A stretch of DNA of 64,000 bases from Nitrospiraceae bacterium (GCA_019637075.1 JAHBWI010000002.1:372001-436000); one strand, 5' to 3'. Positions 25,071-31,245 are shown, numbered from the stretch's first letter. A program made the numbers and translations. The notes: generated by a model from the sequence alone, not told the origin.

Positions 25071-26087
25071 GTGATTCCTGTGACCATGCCTGCCCTGTCT
25101 CGGAGACGTGTACTTGAGCATACCGTCTGGTGCATATTGGCCATTGTCCTGTCTCCCGAGACAGCCTTGCCCGCACTCCTCGAATCCCTCTTCAGCCGTC
25201 CCCCTTCCAAGCTGACCCCAGCCATTACGCCGAATGATCAATTTTATGTCACGTCGTACCGTAGCCCCCCGGCAATTCGCATCCATGAATGGTCCTTGAG
25301 GGTCGACGGTCTGGTACGGACACCCCTTACACTTCCATACAATGACCTGCTGGCCAGACCGCGCGTCTCGCAGATCGTGACGTTGGAGTGTGTCGGGAAC
25401 ACCGTCGGAGGGGAATTCATCGGGACGGCTGAGTGGAGCGGGATTCCGGTACGAACCCTCTTGGAGGAGGCCGGTGCCGACCCAGCGGCCTACGATGTAA
25501 TCATTCGGGCTGCCGATGGCTATTCGGACAGCATCCCGCTCAAGCGGGCGCTTGCCGGCGACGTCCTCCTTGCTCACCACATGAACGGGCTCCCCCTTCC
25601 ACAAGCGCACGGCTTTCCCATCCGCCTTATCGTGCCAGGCTGTTACGGGATGAAGAGCGTGCAGTGGTTGACCAGCATCGAGGTCGCGGCGACGGACTAT
25701 AAAGGGTACTATGCCCAGAAGGGTTGGACCGACGATGCGACCGTGAAGACGACCTCACGCATCGATCGCCCCGGCCACGGCGAAACACTTGCCGGCCGCA
25801 GCCACCGGATCGAGGGATTGGCCTTCTCAGGAACCAGAGGCATCCAGCTGGTGGAAATCAGCACGGATGCGGGCGAAACCTGGCAGTCGGCGGAATTGCA
25901 CCAGCCGCAATCACCGGCCAGTTGGATCTTCTGGTATTACGACTGGATGGCGCGAACCAGCGGCCGTCACACCCTGCTCGTTCGAGCGACGGATGGCACC
26001 GGACGGATCCAAACTTCCATCGAGCAGGACCCCGACCCCGACGGCGCGACGGGATTGCATGAGATTACGGTGACGGTGGAACGATGA
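25071..26087 (+). CDS. Sulfite-oxidase-family molybdopterin oxidoreductase
   Basis: Up to 338 residues from GTG 25071; ATG 25086 (MPALSRRRVLEHTVW) is equally likely. The N-terminus has an SRRRVLE motif and hydrophobic stretch, so export by the Tat route is probable. The molybdopterin domain shows TLECVGN with the molybdenum-binding cysteine at about 107, GIPVRTLLEEAGA, and HGFPIRLIVPGCYGMKSVQWLTSIEV. The C-terminal about 100 residues form the Mo-co dimerisation domain (IEGLAFSGTRGIQLVEISTDAGETW). Family members oxidise sulfite or reduce oxidised methionine; the two-domain build favours sulfite dehydrogenase type. No cytochrome gene is adjacent. Start lies seven bases after the lipoprotein remnant. 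Confidence 0.85.
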   Translation: MIPVTMPALSRRRVLEHTVWCILAIVLSPETALPALLESLFSRPPSKLTPAITPNDQFYVTSYRSPPAIRIHEWSLRVDGLVRTPLTLPYNDLLARPRVSQIVTLECVGNTVGGEFIGTAEWSGIPVRTLLEEAGADPAAYDVIIRAADGYSDSIPLKRALAGDVLLAHHMNGLPLPQAHGFPIRLIVPGCYGMKSVQWLTSIEVAATDYKGYYAQKGWTDDATVKTTSRIDRPGHGETLAGRSHRIEGLAFSGTRGIQLVEISTDAGETWQSAELHQPQSPASWIFWYYDWMARTSGRHTLLVRATDGTGRIQTSIEQDPDPDGATGLHEITVTVER

Positions 26088-26165: not shown

Positions 26166-27509
26166 TCATCGCTTCAGGACGCATTTGTCGTAGAGGTGCT
26201 TGAGGCGGCCGGTGGGATCATAGCGCTGCTTGAGCGCTCGATAGGCCGGCTCGTTGTACAGTCGCCCGAACTCTTCCCTAGAATAATAGGAATTCGAATA
26301 CAACGACTTGCGGCCATCCAGGTCTCGCACTTTGGCTTCGACCATGCGATTGTAATATCCATCTTCTCGGTCGCTGGGCACGACGTCCCAGAACCCGAAA
26401 TTCACGTAAAGCCGGGCGGGGTCCATGGGGTAAAGCGGATAGGTGATGGAAGGGTCCAGCGTCGCGACCGGGCAAATCCAGACCGGCCTGATGCCGATGT
26501 TCGATTCAAGGAAACCGGCGAACTCGGCCGCATGCTCGATCGGAATTTCCACATCCTGGATGACCGGCTCCTGACGCCCCTCCATCAATTGCAGCAATGT
26601 CTGGGCTGACCGAGATCGGTGAATCGCCTGCCAGAGCTTCCAATAGACCGCGGAGCGAAGCCGCTTTCGCCCCCACAGCCGGCGCATCCACGCATGCTGC
26701 AAGAGGAAATGTTTGGAGCACCAAAACCAGTCGGTATCCCAGCGCCACAGATAATCCTGCGTGGTGAGGAAATCGGTCGATTTGGCTCGGATGGACTGGT
26801 AGTAGATGTCCAGGTAGGTGTAGTCGCTGGGCCGGTCCGCCCGATCGACGAATCGTCCCGTGGTTGCGTAAAGCTCGCCGCCGTCGAACATCGTCCCATC
26901 GACAAAGTCCACGCCACCGCTGCGGCACAACTCCGACAGGTGCCGGAAGTATTCGACGGGATCGGCAACGCGCCGGTGCGTCAACTGGACGAAGGGTTTG
27001 ACAGGGATGAGGGCGATCCTCGCTCGCAGCGCATACCCCAGCGTACCGTATGAATTGGGAAATCCAAGAAAGAGGTCGCGATATTCGTTCTGTCTCGTCG
27101 CCGTGATAACACGGCCGTCGGCGAGCAGGATATCCAATTCCGACATGGTTTCATGGACGAAGCCATACCGGAACGAAGAGGACTCGATGCCGATACCGGC
27201 GATGGCTCCTCCCACGGTAATGGTCTTGAGCTGCGGCACGACTGCGGGCATCAAGTTGAAGGGGAGCGTCTGGGCCACGACATCTTCGTAGGTCGCCAGG
27301 CCCTCGACGTCGGCGTAGCATCCTTCCCGATCGATGTGGAGAACGTGATTGAACGCTCGCAGATCAAGCCGTTGAACCTTGGTCTGTTCGCGGTGCCGAA
27401 AGAGGTTGGAGGATTCTTTGTGAAGGGCTAGCGGCTTGGTGGACGAGGCCGACGCGCAGGCCTTGGAAGCGTGCTCGCGCTTTTCAAGGTAGGTCTCGGT
27501 GAGCGTCAT
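26166..27509 (-). CDS. FAD-linked oxidoreductase, likely fatty-acyl methylene reductase (TmsA/DHCR24-like)
   Basis: 447 residues of the VAO/PCMH flavoprotein fold. The FAD-binding part runs from about residue 55 (GCYADVEGLATYEDVV) through LKTITVGGAIAGIGIESSSFRYG near 95-117 and ELDILLADGRVI; the C-terminal cap includes DRADRPSDYTYLDIYYQS and VNFGFWDVVPS. The pattern resembles delta-24 sterol reductases and the actinobacterial TmsA/BfaA reductase, which reduces a 10-methylene acyl chain made by a Cfa-like methyltransferase to a methyl branch. It is the last gene of a minus-strand operon, six bases after that methyltransferase gene, itself after a desaturase. The assignment to methyl-branched lipid synthesis rests on this context and is an inference. 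Confidence 0.75.
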   Translation of the reverse strand: MTLTETYLEKREHASKACASASSTKPLALHKESSNLFRHREQTKVQRLDLRAFNHVLHIDREGCYADVEGLATYEDVVAQTLPFNLMPAVVPQLKTITVGGAIAGIGIESSSFRYGFVHETMSELDILLADGRVITATRQNEYRDLFLGFPNSYGTLGYALRARIALIPVKPFVQLTHRRVADPVEYFRHLSELCRSGGVDFVDGTMFDGGELYATTGRFVDRADRPSDYTYLDIYYQSIRAKSTDFLTTQDYLWRWDTDWFWCSKHFLLQHAWMRRLWGRKRLRSAVYWKLWQAIHRSRSAQTLLQLMEGRQEPVIQDVEIPIEHAAEFAGFLESNIGIRPVWICPVATLDPSITYPLYPMDPARLYVNFGFWDVVPSDREDGYYNRMVEAKVRDLDGRKSLYSNSYYSREEFGRLYNEPAYRALKQRYDPTGRLKHLYDKCVLKR

Positions 27510-27515
27510 GGTCTG

Positions 27516-28631
27516 CTACCGAATCGACTCGTAGCCCCCCAACACACCGTGCCTGGACAGCACGAGCTGCCACAGATGAACTCTTCTTGCCCGAAAGGCG
27601 CCGGCCAATGACAGCAGATAGTAGCGCCAAGCCCGGTTGAACCGTTCGTCGATCAGAGGGGGCAGCGCCTCGTGGTGGCGGTCGATGTTCTCCTGCCAAC
27701 CCATGAGCGTCTTGTCATAGTCCGGCCCGAAGTTGTGCCAATCTTCCAGCACGAGCAGGCCGTCCATGGCCGCGCCCAGCTGCGCGGTGGACGGAAGCAT
27801 CCCGCCGGGGAAGATGTACTTGTCGAACCAAGGATCTGCGGTGGAGACCGACGCATTGTTGCCGATCGTGTGCAGCAGAAACAGCCCGTGTTCCTTCAAG
27901 GAACGATAGGCCACTTCCATCAGCCTGCGGTAATTCTTGTAGCCCACATGCTCACAGAGGCCGATGGCGGCCACCTTGTCGAACTCCCCTGTGGCCTCAC
28001 GATAGTCTCCCTGAATGACTTCGACGGGCAATCCCGCACACCAGCGGCGGGCAAACGCCACCTGCTTGTCCGAAATATTGTAGGCCACGACCGAACAGCC
28101 ATAGTGCAAAGCCGCATAACGGGCAAACCCACCCCACCCGCAACCCAATTCCAGCACCCGATCTCCCGGCTTCAGTTGCAACTTTCGGCAGATCAGGTCC
28201 AACTTGTGTTCCTGGGCTTCATCCAAGCTGGAAGCGCGCTTCCAGTAGGCGCAGGTATATTGCATGGTGGGGCCCAGCATCGCACGATAGAACTCTTCGT
28301 CCAGGTCGTAATGCTGCTCAGCGACTCTCCTCGAGAGCCGCCTGTTCTGCATATTGAAGAACTTCGCCTTGAGCGCATTCAGGATCAGGTTCTTGTCCAG
28401 AATCGCTTCGTCTAACTGCACCTGATGGACCTTGTCAAAAAACTCATCCAACTGGGCGGCGTCCCACCAGCCTTCCATGTAAGACTCGCCGAGCCCCAAC
28501 GAGCCGTCTGAGAGTACCCGGTCATAAAACGCATCATTGTGAACTCGGATGTCTCCCGGCTCATCCCCTCCGACGTGAACATGGGCACGGTTGAGAAGCT
28601 GCAGCACCGCTTGCTTGTGATCCATCGCCAA
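27516..28631 (-). CDS. cfa: Cyclopropane-fatty-acyl-phospholipid synthase family methyltransferase
   Basis: 371 residues, close to Escherichia coli Cfa along its whole length: N-terminal domain with VLSDGSLGLGESYMEGWWD, then the SAM-binding core VLELGCGWGGFARYAA, CEHVGYKNY, LLHTIGNN, DKYIFPGGMLPS, EDWHNFGPDYDKTL and AGAFRARRVHLWQ. Residues known to hold bicarbonate in Cfa (Cys in GCGWGG, Glu/His in EHVG, His in HTIG and a late Tyr) appear present. It transfers a methylene from SAM to a cis double bond. Alone this would give cyclopropane lipids; with the adjacent FAD reductase it may give methyl branches instead. It follows the desaturase gene after 54 bases in the same operon. Confidence 0.88.
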   Translation of the reverse strand: MAMDHKQAVLQLLNRAHVHVGGDEPGDIRVHNDAFYDRVLSDGSLGLGESYMEGWWDAAQLDEFFDKVHQVQLDEAILDKNLILNALKAKFFNMQNRRLSRRVAEQHYDLDEEFYRAMLGPTMQYTCAYWKRASSLDEAQEHKLDLICRKLQLKPGDRVLELGCGWGGFARYAALHYGCSVVAYNISDKQVAFARRWCAGLPVEVIQGDYREATGEFDKVAAIGLCEHVGYKNYRRLMEVAYRSLKEHGLFLLHTIGNNASVSTADPWFDKYIFPGGMLPSTAQLGAAMDGLLVLEDWHNFGPDYDKTLMGWQENIDRHHEALPPLIDERFNRAWRYYLLSLAGAFRARRVHLWQLVLSRHGVLGGYESIR

Positions 28632-28685
28632 GCCGTCCTTTCCCCCCGGAGGGATCGAACATGACGCGCTGTCAATGGTCGCGGC

Positions 28686-29543
28686 TTAATTTCGAAGGCT
28701 ACTGGCCGCGATCGTCTGCTGTTTGACGGATTCAGGGGGCATCCGGAGGTCCCAGACCACCCCCGTCCATGATAACGCCCGCAAAATGTAATAGGACAGG
28801 TCCACCTCCCACCAAAACCACCCCTGGTTGACCGCCAGCTGATAGTGATGGTGGTTGTTGTGCCACCCTTCCCCACAGCACAAGATGGCGAGAAGCGCGC
28901 TATTGCGGCTGTCGTCGCCCGAGTTATAACGCACGCGGCCGATCAGGTGGGAAAGGGAATTGATGAAGAAGGTGCCGTGATACAGGGCGGTGGTGGAGAT
29001 GAAAAATCCCCAGATGAGACCCGGCATGCCCCAGAGCCCGTACATGAGGGCGGCATACAGGAACGGCGGCACGACATAGAAGCGGTTCAGCCACATCAGT
29101 TCCGGATAGCGCGCCAAATCCTTCACGAGATGGAACTGCGTCGCCGTCGAACTGGGGTTGAGAATCCAACCCACATGGGAATACCAAAACCCCTGCTGCG
29201 CCGGTGAATGGAGATCCCGCTGCCGATCGGAATGACGATGGTGATGCCGGTGATGGGCGGCCCACCAGAGCACGCCCTTCTGCGCGCTCGTCATGGCCAG
29301 ACAGGCCAGGAGGAATTGGAACACACGCCCGGTCTTATAGGAACGATGGGAAAAATACCGGTGGTACCCGGCGGTGACCCCGACCATTCGGATGTAGTAA
29401 CTGACTACCGCCAACAGCACCCACTCCCACGTGACGCCCGTGAACAGGGCACCGAGACACATGAGGTGAATCGCCAGAAACGGCAGGTTGTCCCATTGTT
29501 GCAGGGCACTCTTGGTTGATGGCTTGAGATTGTCTTCAGTCAT
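28686..29543 (-). CDS. Acyl-CoA/acyl-lipid fatty-acid desaturase
   Basis: 285-residue membrane di-iron desaturase of the DesC/delta-9 class. Three histidine boxes are visible: HRYFSH at 61-66, HHRHHHRHSD near 97-106 and EGWHNNHHHY near 229-238. Four membrane segments flank them (FLAIHLMCLGALFTG, WVLLAVVSYYIRMVG, VFQFLLACLAM, FLYAALMYGLWGMPGL). It introduces one cis double bond using O2 and reduced ferredoxin or cytochrome b5; position is not readable from sequence. The start ATG overlaps the cobB stop by four bases. The product double bond is the natural substrate for the Cfa-like enzyme encoded next. Confidence 0.9.
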   Translation of the reverse strand: MTEDNLKPSTKSALQQWDNLPFLAIHLMCLGALFTGVTWEWVLLAVVSYYIRMVGVTAGYHRYFSHRSYKTGRVFQFLLACLAMTSAQKGVLWWAAHHRHHHRHSDRQRDLHSPAQQGFWYSHVGWILNPSSTATQFHLVKDLARYPELMWLNRFYVVPPFLYAALMYGLWGMPGLIWGFFISTTALYHGTFFINSLSHLIGRVRYNSGDDSRNSALLAILCCGEGWHNNHHHYQLAVNQGWFWWEVDLSYYILRALSWTGVVWDLRMPPESVKQQTIAASSLRN

Positions 29544-30921
29544 GCGTCACACTGTCCTGCACGCCCCTACCAGCAGACTGCAGTAGCTCGCTGATCATCG
29601 ACGGCTGGCTCCCAAAGTGAAGGTGTGTATATCCGGCCAACGTATTTTTCGTGACAAGCCCATCCGTCCCTTTGCGCTCACCCCTGGCATCGGCGACCTG
29701 ATAGGCATAGGCCAATGCCCCGGTCGGTTCCAGGACGGAATAGTGAAATTCGTGTCCGCGCGCAACCGTCCCCGCTTCTCCCAGAATGCATGGGCGGGAC
29801 AACTCAAGCCGACGATAGCCCAGCGTCAGTCCCGTCTTTCGCATGACCGCCAGGGCCGGAAAGACCCCCGCCATCTCATGCACCCGCCCTTCGAAATCGC
29901 GAATACCGTCCGTCAAGTACATCATTCCTCCACATTCAGCGAATATCGTCCCGCCCCGTTCGGAAAAGGCCGCAACAGTCCGGCGCATGCTGCGATTTTC
30001 CGAGAGGGCCGCGGCATGCAATTCAGGGTAACCCCCGCCAAGATATAGCATGTCTACGTGGGGTAACGCTGCATCCAAAATAGGAGAAAAATAGACGAGT
30101 TCGCCCCCCTGTGACTCAAGCAACTGCAGATTGTCCGCGTAATAAAAGCAGAAGGCGGGATCACGTGCAACACCAATCCGCACTGTTCGGCTGGGAGTCG
30201 GTTGCACGGGGGACGGATGGGGCCTCTCGATGGGAGCGGCCGTAGCTGCCACGCGCTCCAACAGGTCAAGATCGACCGTCGCCTCGGCAGATGCGCCCAA
30301 CCGGCGATACAGTTCGCACCAACTCCCCTCGCCGGCCCCGACCAATCCCAGGTGACGTTCAGAAATGACCACCTCATCCTGCCGAAGGTACCCCACGGCA
30401 GGGATGCTCATCCGCTGCTCGACCGCGTTCTTGAGCAACCGGTAGTGGCCTGGGCTGTTGACACGGTTGAAGAGGACCCCGGCGATGGCGAGGTCCGGAT
30501 CGAACCGCGCGAACCCCTCAACAAGGGCGGCCGCAGACCTGGCCATCGCCCCCCCGTCCACCACCAGCAGCACCGGCGCACCCAACTGCTTGGCCAGTTC
30601 GGCAGTGCTTCCCTCATCGTTCGTTGAACCGATGCCGTCGAATAAGCCCATCATCCCTTCAATAAGCGCGAGGTCCGCCCCCATCGACGCATGGGTAAGG
30701 ATGGCCCTATTCATCTCCGCATCGAGCATCCACCCATCCAAGTTCCTCGACGGGCGACCGGTTACCGCCGTGTGGTGGGCGGGATCGATGAAATCCGGCC
30801 CAGCCTTGAATGGCTGTACCACCCGCCCCTTGGCGGCCAACGCGGAGAGCAGCGCCAAAGTCACCGTGGTTTTGCCGACGCTGCTCCCGGTGCCGGCGAT
30901 AACGAGACGCGGGATCCTCAT
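29536..30921 (-). CDS. cobB: Cobyrinate a,c-diamide synthase
   Basis: About 461 residues from ATG 30921 (MRIPRLVIAG), the start that gives normal CobB/CbiA length; a longer frame reaches 31026. N-terminal P-loop GTGSSVGKTTVTLALL and DTBS-like fold (GPDFIDPAHH, LIEGMMGLFDG), C-terminal class-I glutamine amidotransferase domain with YLGGGYPELH and nucleophile Cys in FAECGGMMYL, closing His near THLHFGSQP. It amidates cobyrinate at a and c using Gln and ATP in cobalamin synthesis. No other cobalamin genes lie nearby, and no B12 riboswitch was recognised upstream. Overlap with the desaturase gene puts it first in a lipid operon, an odd partner. Confidence 0.92.
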   Translation of the reverse strand: MRIPRLVIAGTGSSVGKTTVTLALLSALAAKGRVVQPFKAGPDFIDPAHHTAVTGRPSRNLDGWMLDAEMNRAILTHASMGADLALIEGMMGLFDGIGSTNDEGSTAELAKQLGAPVLLVVDGGAMARSAAALVEGFARFDPDLAIAGVLFNRVNSPGHYRLLKNAVEQRMSIPAVGYLRQDEVVISERHLGLVGAGEGSWCELYRRLGASAEATVDLDLLERVAATAAPIERPHPSPVQPTPSRTVRIGVARDPAFCFYYADNLQLLESQGGELVYFSPILDAALPHVDMLYLGGGYPELHAAALSENRSMRRTVAAFSERGGTIFAECGGMMYLTDGIRDFEGRVHEMAGVFPALAVMRKTGLTLGYRRLELSRPCILGEAGTVARGHEFHYSVLEPTGALAYAYQVADARGERKGTDGLVTKNTLAGYTHLHFGSQPSMISELLQSAGRGVQDSVTHD

Positions 30922-31245
30922 GGACAGATCCAGACTGCGAATATCAACTGAGATACCCATACGACTAGCTGAACAACCGTTCCATATAGAGGAGGCTTCG
31001 TACCGTTGCTGAGCCAGGCTCTTCACACGGCCGGCAAGTCGACCATTTCACCCCTCCGACGCCTCCGACTCATGCAGGCGGATCCGATCCGTATAGCATG
31101 GTTTTGGTGTCCGTAACACTCCGATTTTTCTCGGCCTTTCCAGCCCGTCAGATCGCTGCAATGGAGCCACCCCTCGTCTGGTTGATCAGCATCGATCCGC
31201 GATCATCACGAGCGGTTCGGGAGGCACACGCATAGCGATTGCACT

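Follow-up and report, generated by a model that had tools for sequence, protein, structure and literature searches.

A desaturase, methyltransferase and flavoprotein operon of Nitrospira predicted to make mid-chain methyl-branched fatty acids

What lipid would a nitrifying bacterium make with three adjoining genes for a fatty acid desaturase, a Cfa-type S-adenosylmethionine (SAM) methyltransferase and a flavin adenine dinucleotide (FAD) oxidoreductase? Such genes lie on the minus strand of a 64,000-nucleotide stretch of DNA from a Nitrospiraceae bacterium (GCA_019637075.1 JAHBWI010000002.1:372001-436000), the whole of which is referred to here as the window. A preliminary description of the window had likened the second and third genes to the actinobacterial enzymes that make 10-methyl fatty acids, and had proposed the operon as a source of 11-methylhexadecanoic acid (11-methyl-16:0), a lipid marker of Nitrospira moscoviensis. 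We consider it likely, by analogy with the actinobacterial BfaAB enzymes, that the operon makes a saturated fatty acid with a mid-chain methyl branch, and we find that the marker of N. moscoviensis has another origin. The genes and the parts of them that carry the argument are as follows.

28686-29543, minus strand: desaturase of 285 amino acids (aa; PF00487, 61 bits), gene 1 of the module
27516-28631, minus strand: Cfa-type SAM methyltransferase of 371 aa (PF02353, 249 bits), of the E. coli-Cfa type
27951-27956, minus strand: codons Cys226-Glu227 of the methyltransferase, placed by alignment and solved structures
26166-27509, minus strand: FAD oxidoreductase of 447 aa (PF01565, 51 bits), BfaA/TmsA family
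27162-27236, minus strand: PQLKTITVGGAIAGIGIESSSFRYG, a conserved FAD-domain stretch, residues 92-116 of the FAD protein

The coordinates of the open reading frames confirm the order first described, with transcription on the minus strand running from the desaturase through the methyltransferase to the FAD oxidoreductase across gaps of 54 and 6 bases. The methyltransferase has a TTG start codon, and the first gap becomes 60 bases if translation begins at an alternative ATG two codons downstream. The desaturase carries the His boxes HRYFSH (residue 61), HHRHHH (97) and HNNHHH (228). One FAD gene of the BfaA kind, one full Cfa and four desaturases are found in the source genome, and the lack of any other full Cfa there supports the proposed pathway.

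To what extent are the three genes inherited together? FAD orthologues, with about 60-67% identity over most of their length, were found in 27 of 175 Nitrospiraceae genomes; outside this family the sampled genomes of the order (27 carriers among 236 in all) and of the phylum had none. The methyltransferase has an orthologue (69-78% identity) in 26 of the 175 genomes, other Cfa homologues being mostly 33-44% identical. Both genes are present in 25 genomes, 23 of which have the desaturase as well. Nearly all intact loci retain the order desaturase, methyltransferase, FAD gene, and in almost every Nitrospira copy a desaturase orthologue (66-77%) precedes the methyltransferase. Hypergeometric co-occurrence values ignore shared ancestry and are not counted here as proof. 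Because the FAD and methyltransferase orthologues co-occur to this extent and gene order is retained, the three genes are one real module, beyond what chance would give; linkage and co-occurrence thus bear out the earlier claim of a single operon-like unit.

On full-length identity, tree placement and gene context, the FAD protein is a member of the BfaA/TmsA family, as had been proposed. Along 90-94% of its length it shares 44.2-51.6% identity with actinobacterial proteins encoded beside BfaB-type methyltransferases (Nonomuraea 51.6%, Tsukamurella 45.7%, Nocardia 44.2%), and its full-length relatives (44-52%) are FAD oxidoreductases of Nonomuraea, Tsukamurella, Nocardia, Prescottella and Variovorax. 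The tree places it inside the BfaA family and not in an unrelated oxidase group; this is an unrooted grouping, since distant FAD proteins, at a branch length of 10, could not serve as a root. The Tsukamurella locus runs SRPBCC, FAD gene, methyltransferase, beside an Rv3717-family gene, which is the arrangement of the tested bfaA-bfaB genes of Mycobacterium chlorophenolicum, where a polyketide-cyclase-like gene lies upstream (PMC5660069). Residues G100, G101, A102, G105, I108, E109, S112 and G116 of the FAD protein are invariant in 40 family members. FAD_binding_4 is its sole Pfam family, and its solved relatives by sequence are cytokinin dehydrogenases and DprE1, in the FAD domain only. An AlphaFold model (pLDDT 90.1) has the VAO-type two-domain fold throughout and matches DprE1 with a Z of 29.9 (3.0 Å over 363 residues). 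Searches by sequence and by fold brought up no solved DHCR24, and a likeness to DHCR24 motifs is a lead and no more. We predict that the FAD protein is a methylene-fatty-acid reductase.

How might such a reductase be used? Protein families, linkage and co-inheritance are observed for this operon, and for the chemistry we infer a route modelled on BfaAB. The desaturase would introduce a cis double bond into a membrane acyl chain; the methyltransferase would transfer the methyl group of SAM to the cis alkene, the cation being deprotonated to an exo-methylene; and the BfaA-type FAD enzyme would reduce the methylene to a methyl branch. Expression of bfaAB in Escherichia coli yields methylene and then methyl acids (PMC7791843, PMC5660069): the M. 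chlorophenolicum bfaA-bfaB pair gives 10-methylstearic acid, and when bfaB is expressed by itself the product has been assigned as the methylene acid (PMC5660069). NADPH is the reported reductant of BfaA, and BfaB acts on Delta9, Delta10 and Delta11 chains (PMC7791843). The operon shares with BfaAB (TmsAB in actinobacteria, the source of 10-methylstearic or tuberculostearic acid) a reductase family (44-52% identity) adjoining a Cfa-superfamily methyltransferase and, presumably, the two-step chemistry. It differs in placing the methyltransferase before the reductase, in the clade of that methyltransferase, in being led by a dedicated desaturase and probably in using a substrate other than 18:1 cis-9.

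The preliminary description had taken the methyltransferase for a TmsB/BfaB-type enzyme, and here the evidence pointed elsewhere: by sequence it is of the E. coli-Cfa type. It scores 522.6 bits against NF008686, the NCBI Cfa equivalog (cut-off 400), and 378 bits against E. coli Cfa (6bqc), but its identity to BfaB-type proteins is no more than 32-36%; it and BfaB fall in different clades of the tree, its own being that of E. coli Cfa (support 99). All bicarbonate-site residues are present (C127, E227, H254, I256 and Y305, equivalent to Cys139, Glu239, His266, Ile268 and Tyr317 in E. coli numbering).

Reductase-linked methyltransferases form three separate groups in this tree. Type I is actinobacterial BfaB (37 rows, support 100) and type II is proteobacterial (19 rows, support 94). 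Type III comprises enzymes of Nitrospira, Acidobacteriota, Myxococcota, Verrucomicrobiota and some bins labelled as candidate phyla; lone Cfas, those of E. coli and Burkholderia among them, form the sister group of its main clade (23 rows, support 99), and two Patescibacteria-labelled rows branch just outside that clade. The FAD gene precedes the methyltransferase in type I and mostly follows it in types II and III, and the bicarbonate-site residues are conserved in all three types. A same-strand Cfa-superfamily methyltransferase lies no more than 600 bases away at 69 of the 80 named FAD-family loci; most of the rest belong to Gammaproteobacteria and show the FAD gene by itself. No cultured Nitrospira came up among the named genomes listed, and absence there is not counted as evidence. 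The pairing of one reductase family with three methyltransferase clades makes most sense if all of them share a methylene intermediate.

The three groups also differ from lone Cfas in the residue before the catalytic Glu. This residue is Phe in nine of 11 lone E. coli-type Cfas (Phe238 in E. coli Cfa), as it is in the solved Cfas 7qos and 5z9o and in CmaA1, MmaA2 and UmaA. It is Thr in type I (37/37), Leu in type II (19/19) and Cys (22), Met (2) or Thr (1) in type III, where Phe occurs in none of 25; in the window's enzyme residue 226, before Glu227, is Cys. The distinction blurs beyond the E. coli-type clade: of four lone CfaB-type proteins two have Ala and two Phe, and the Cfas of Leptolyngbya and Vibrio tritonius have Val and Ile, respectively. 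We treat the Phe as an empirical feature and not as an established Cfa criterion. The pattern spans three clades, hence at most about three independent events, and is an observation on sequences, not proof of a product. The change from Phe to Cys offers a one-residue test of a cyclopropane against a methylene outcome.

Could the methyltransferase be an ordinary cyclopropane synthase, its FAD neighbor acting on something else or modifying another lipid? Several points weigh in this direction or otherwise count against a methyl-branched product. The enzyme's nearest relatives are true cyclopropane synthases (mostly 44-53% identity), its clade is sister to the lone Cfas, and since the bicarbonate site is whole and the equivalog cut-off is passed, sequence alone would allow a cyclopropane product. 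Two carriers (G062 and G121) are without the desaturase, and in four genomes (G053, G090, G091 and G161) the desaturase is the only one of the three genes present. In the open-access literature, to which our searches of publications were confined, we found no fatty-acid profile of any known operon carrier, and the paper describing the isolation of N. japonica gives none (PMC4070959). We nevertheless regard a cyclopropane product as unlikely. The type III enzymes encoded beside an FAD gene form a clade of their own, apart from the lone Cfas; none of them has the Phe that most lone Cfas possess; and tight pairing with a BfaA-family reductase, at a median gap of 8 bases, recurs in other phyla. 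Nor did we find any profiled species that carries the triplet and has only cyclopropane acids. Thus, the enzyme resembles E. coli-type Cfa in clade and in bicarbonate site, but differs in having a BfaA-family reductase alongside it in nearly all Nitrospira carriers and Cys in place of Phe before the catalytic Glu.

A second alternative is that the end product is some other methylated unsaturated derivative, such as an allylic methyl or a furan fatty acid. En route to the furan fatty acids of Rhodobacter, 11-methyl unsaturated acids are formed by UfaM and UfaD (PMC7380195). There, too, a methyltransferase acting on an unsaturated chain is joined with a redox flavoprotein, a precedent by which a Cfa-type enzyme beside a redox enzyme is by itself no proof of reduction. 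UfaD, however, is described as a relative of phytoene dehydrogenases and desaturases (PMC7380195), whereas the operon has no such gene and its FAD protein, with FAD_binding_4 only, is of the BfaA family. We therefore judge such an end product most improbable and favor reduction to a saturated, methyl-branched chain.

Two further systems invite comparison with the operon. TmpBA of Marinobacter, Thiohalospira and Desulfobacter, which makes 10-methylene- and 10-methylpalmitate, likewise has a Cfa-type methyltransferase followed by a flavoprotein. TmpA, however, resembles geranylgeranyl reductases, and is inactive in E. coli (PMC7791843); the operon's flavoprotein is of the BfaA type. Closer in its reductase (about 51%) and in gene order is the proteobacterial pairing of BfaA with a type II methyltransferase, as in Variovorax and Zeimonas, but there the methyltransferase is of another clade and no desaturase of the operon's type adjoins. 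The two bfa papers (PMC5660069, PMC7791843), which cover BfaA with BfaB and the non-homologous TmpA, do not report this proteobacterial pairing and do not mention Nitrospira. As far as the open-access literature goes, the combination of a BfaA-type reductase, an E. coli-Cfa-type methyltransferase and a dedicated desaturase appears to be new.

Does the operon account for the 11-methyl-16:0 of Nitrospira? This acid exceeds 20% in N. moscoviensis, Candidatus N. bockiana and Candidatus N. calida, is not listed for Candidatus N. defluvii, and amounts to 0.8% in N. marina Nb-295 and 2.3% in one Ecomares 2.1 culture (PMC3660363). The operon encodes enzymes of the right kind, and Nitrospira species make 16:1 cis-7 and cis-11 (PMC3660363), which speaks for the operon as the source of the marker in N. 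moscoviensis and its relatives. The position at which the desaturase acts cannot be read from the marker, because a Delta11 or a Delta10 alkene, each methylated at C11, would fit. The genome of N. moscoviensis (G054), however, contains no BfaA-family protein, no close Cfa orthologue and no desaturase orthologue (a 50% paralogue only). As none of the three orthologues is present, N. moscoviensis does not owe its marker to this operon, and the earlier proposal fails for this species. The strain-identified carriers N. japonica NJ1 (G045) and strain KM1 (G047) have all three genes, but we found no lipid profile for either. Strain ND1 (G039) and the genome taken to be N. defluvii (G016) are non-carriers. 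Moreover, N. marina Nb-295 contains some of the acid, yet the reductase is absent from the sampled order outside Nitrospiraceae. That the operon underlies the marker in N. moscoviensis and its relatives together is thus very unlikely. Other genes must produce the classic Nitrospira marker in N. moscoviensis, a point of consequence wherever the acid is used as a biomarker.

One lead to those genes is a cluster in the N. moscoviensis genome (L161:5674-9029, on G054:C1 at about 4,143,676-4,147,030) that encodes a desaturase (354 aa), a CMAS-like methyltransferase (301 aa) and a Cfa (432 aa, with Cys before the catalytic Glu), and contains no BfaA-type gene. We put this cluster forward as a candidate source of the acid. 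In all, N. moscoviensis has two Cfa homologues other than orthologues of the operon's enzyme, with Cys and Val before the catalytic Glu, and one of the two is the Cfa of this cluster. The Cfa of the cluster has matches of at least 47% identity in only 10 genomes, none of which is among the 27 operon carriers, numbers that are too few for significance.

These observations can be joined in a wider proposal, which we offer only tentatively. BfaA-type reductases may have gained Cfa-superfamily methyltransferases as partners on at least three independent occasions, each of these enzymes making a methylene and not a cyclopropane, and loss of the Phe may have contributed to that change; the Nitrospira desaturase would render the module self-contained, and N. 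moscoviensis would make 11-methyl-16:0 by different enzymes. The proposed pathway would extend the tuberculostearic-acid kind of chemistry to nitrifying bacteria and several other phyla, and carriage of the operon would predict which Nitrospira strains should have mid-chain methyl-branched lipids.

Our survey of loci gave several additional observations on pairs and sets of this kind. Gammaproteobacterial BfaA-family genes with no adjoining Cfa-type methyltransferase were seen at L076, L078, L081, L083, L085, L086, L089, L107 and L126. Cfa-BfaA pairs occur in bins labelled Magasanikbacteria, Woesearchaeota and Patescibacteria (L074, L075, L104 and L122), and reflect either lateral transfer or mis-binned contigs. 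Three Amycolatopsis genomes (L090, L091 and L101) have a desaturase, about 31% identical to the window's, some 600-700 bases after the BfaA-BfaB pair. A Prescottella plasmid (L037:971-6667) has bfaAB twice, in inverted orientation, inside a duplicated region; one methyltransferase match and both FAD matches are fragmented. A Streptomyces virginiae plasmid (L177:1428-4125) encodes a desaturase, a nitroreductase/quinone-reductase family protein and an E. coli-type Cfa (50% identical to the window's), which is another desaturase, redox enzyme and Cfa set with a different redox partner. On the Pseudomonas aeruginosa plasmid pKLC102 (L186:1889-5256), a gene for a 672-aa protein with a Cfa-like part adjoins an oppositely oriented fatty acid desaturase gene.

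One further gene abuts the operon in the window.

29536-31026, minus strand: cobB-like cobyrinate a,c-diamide synthase (NF002204, 502.7 bits), upstream of the desaturase

Its end overlaps the start of the desaturase by 8 bases, and it is probably co-transcribed with the operon in the source genome. In six other genomes checked cobB is not next to the module, and the gene is local context, outside the conserved module. At the other end, a plus-strand gene at 25071-26087 of the window, convergent with the 3' end of the operon, encodes a molybdopterin oxidoreductase akin to sulfite dehydrogenases; its matches to the SoxC and SorA models fall short of the cut-offs.

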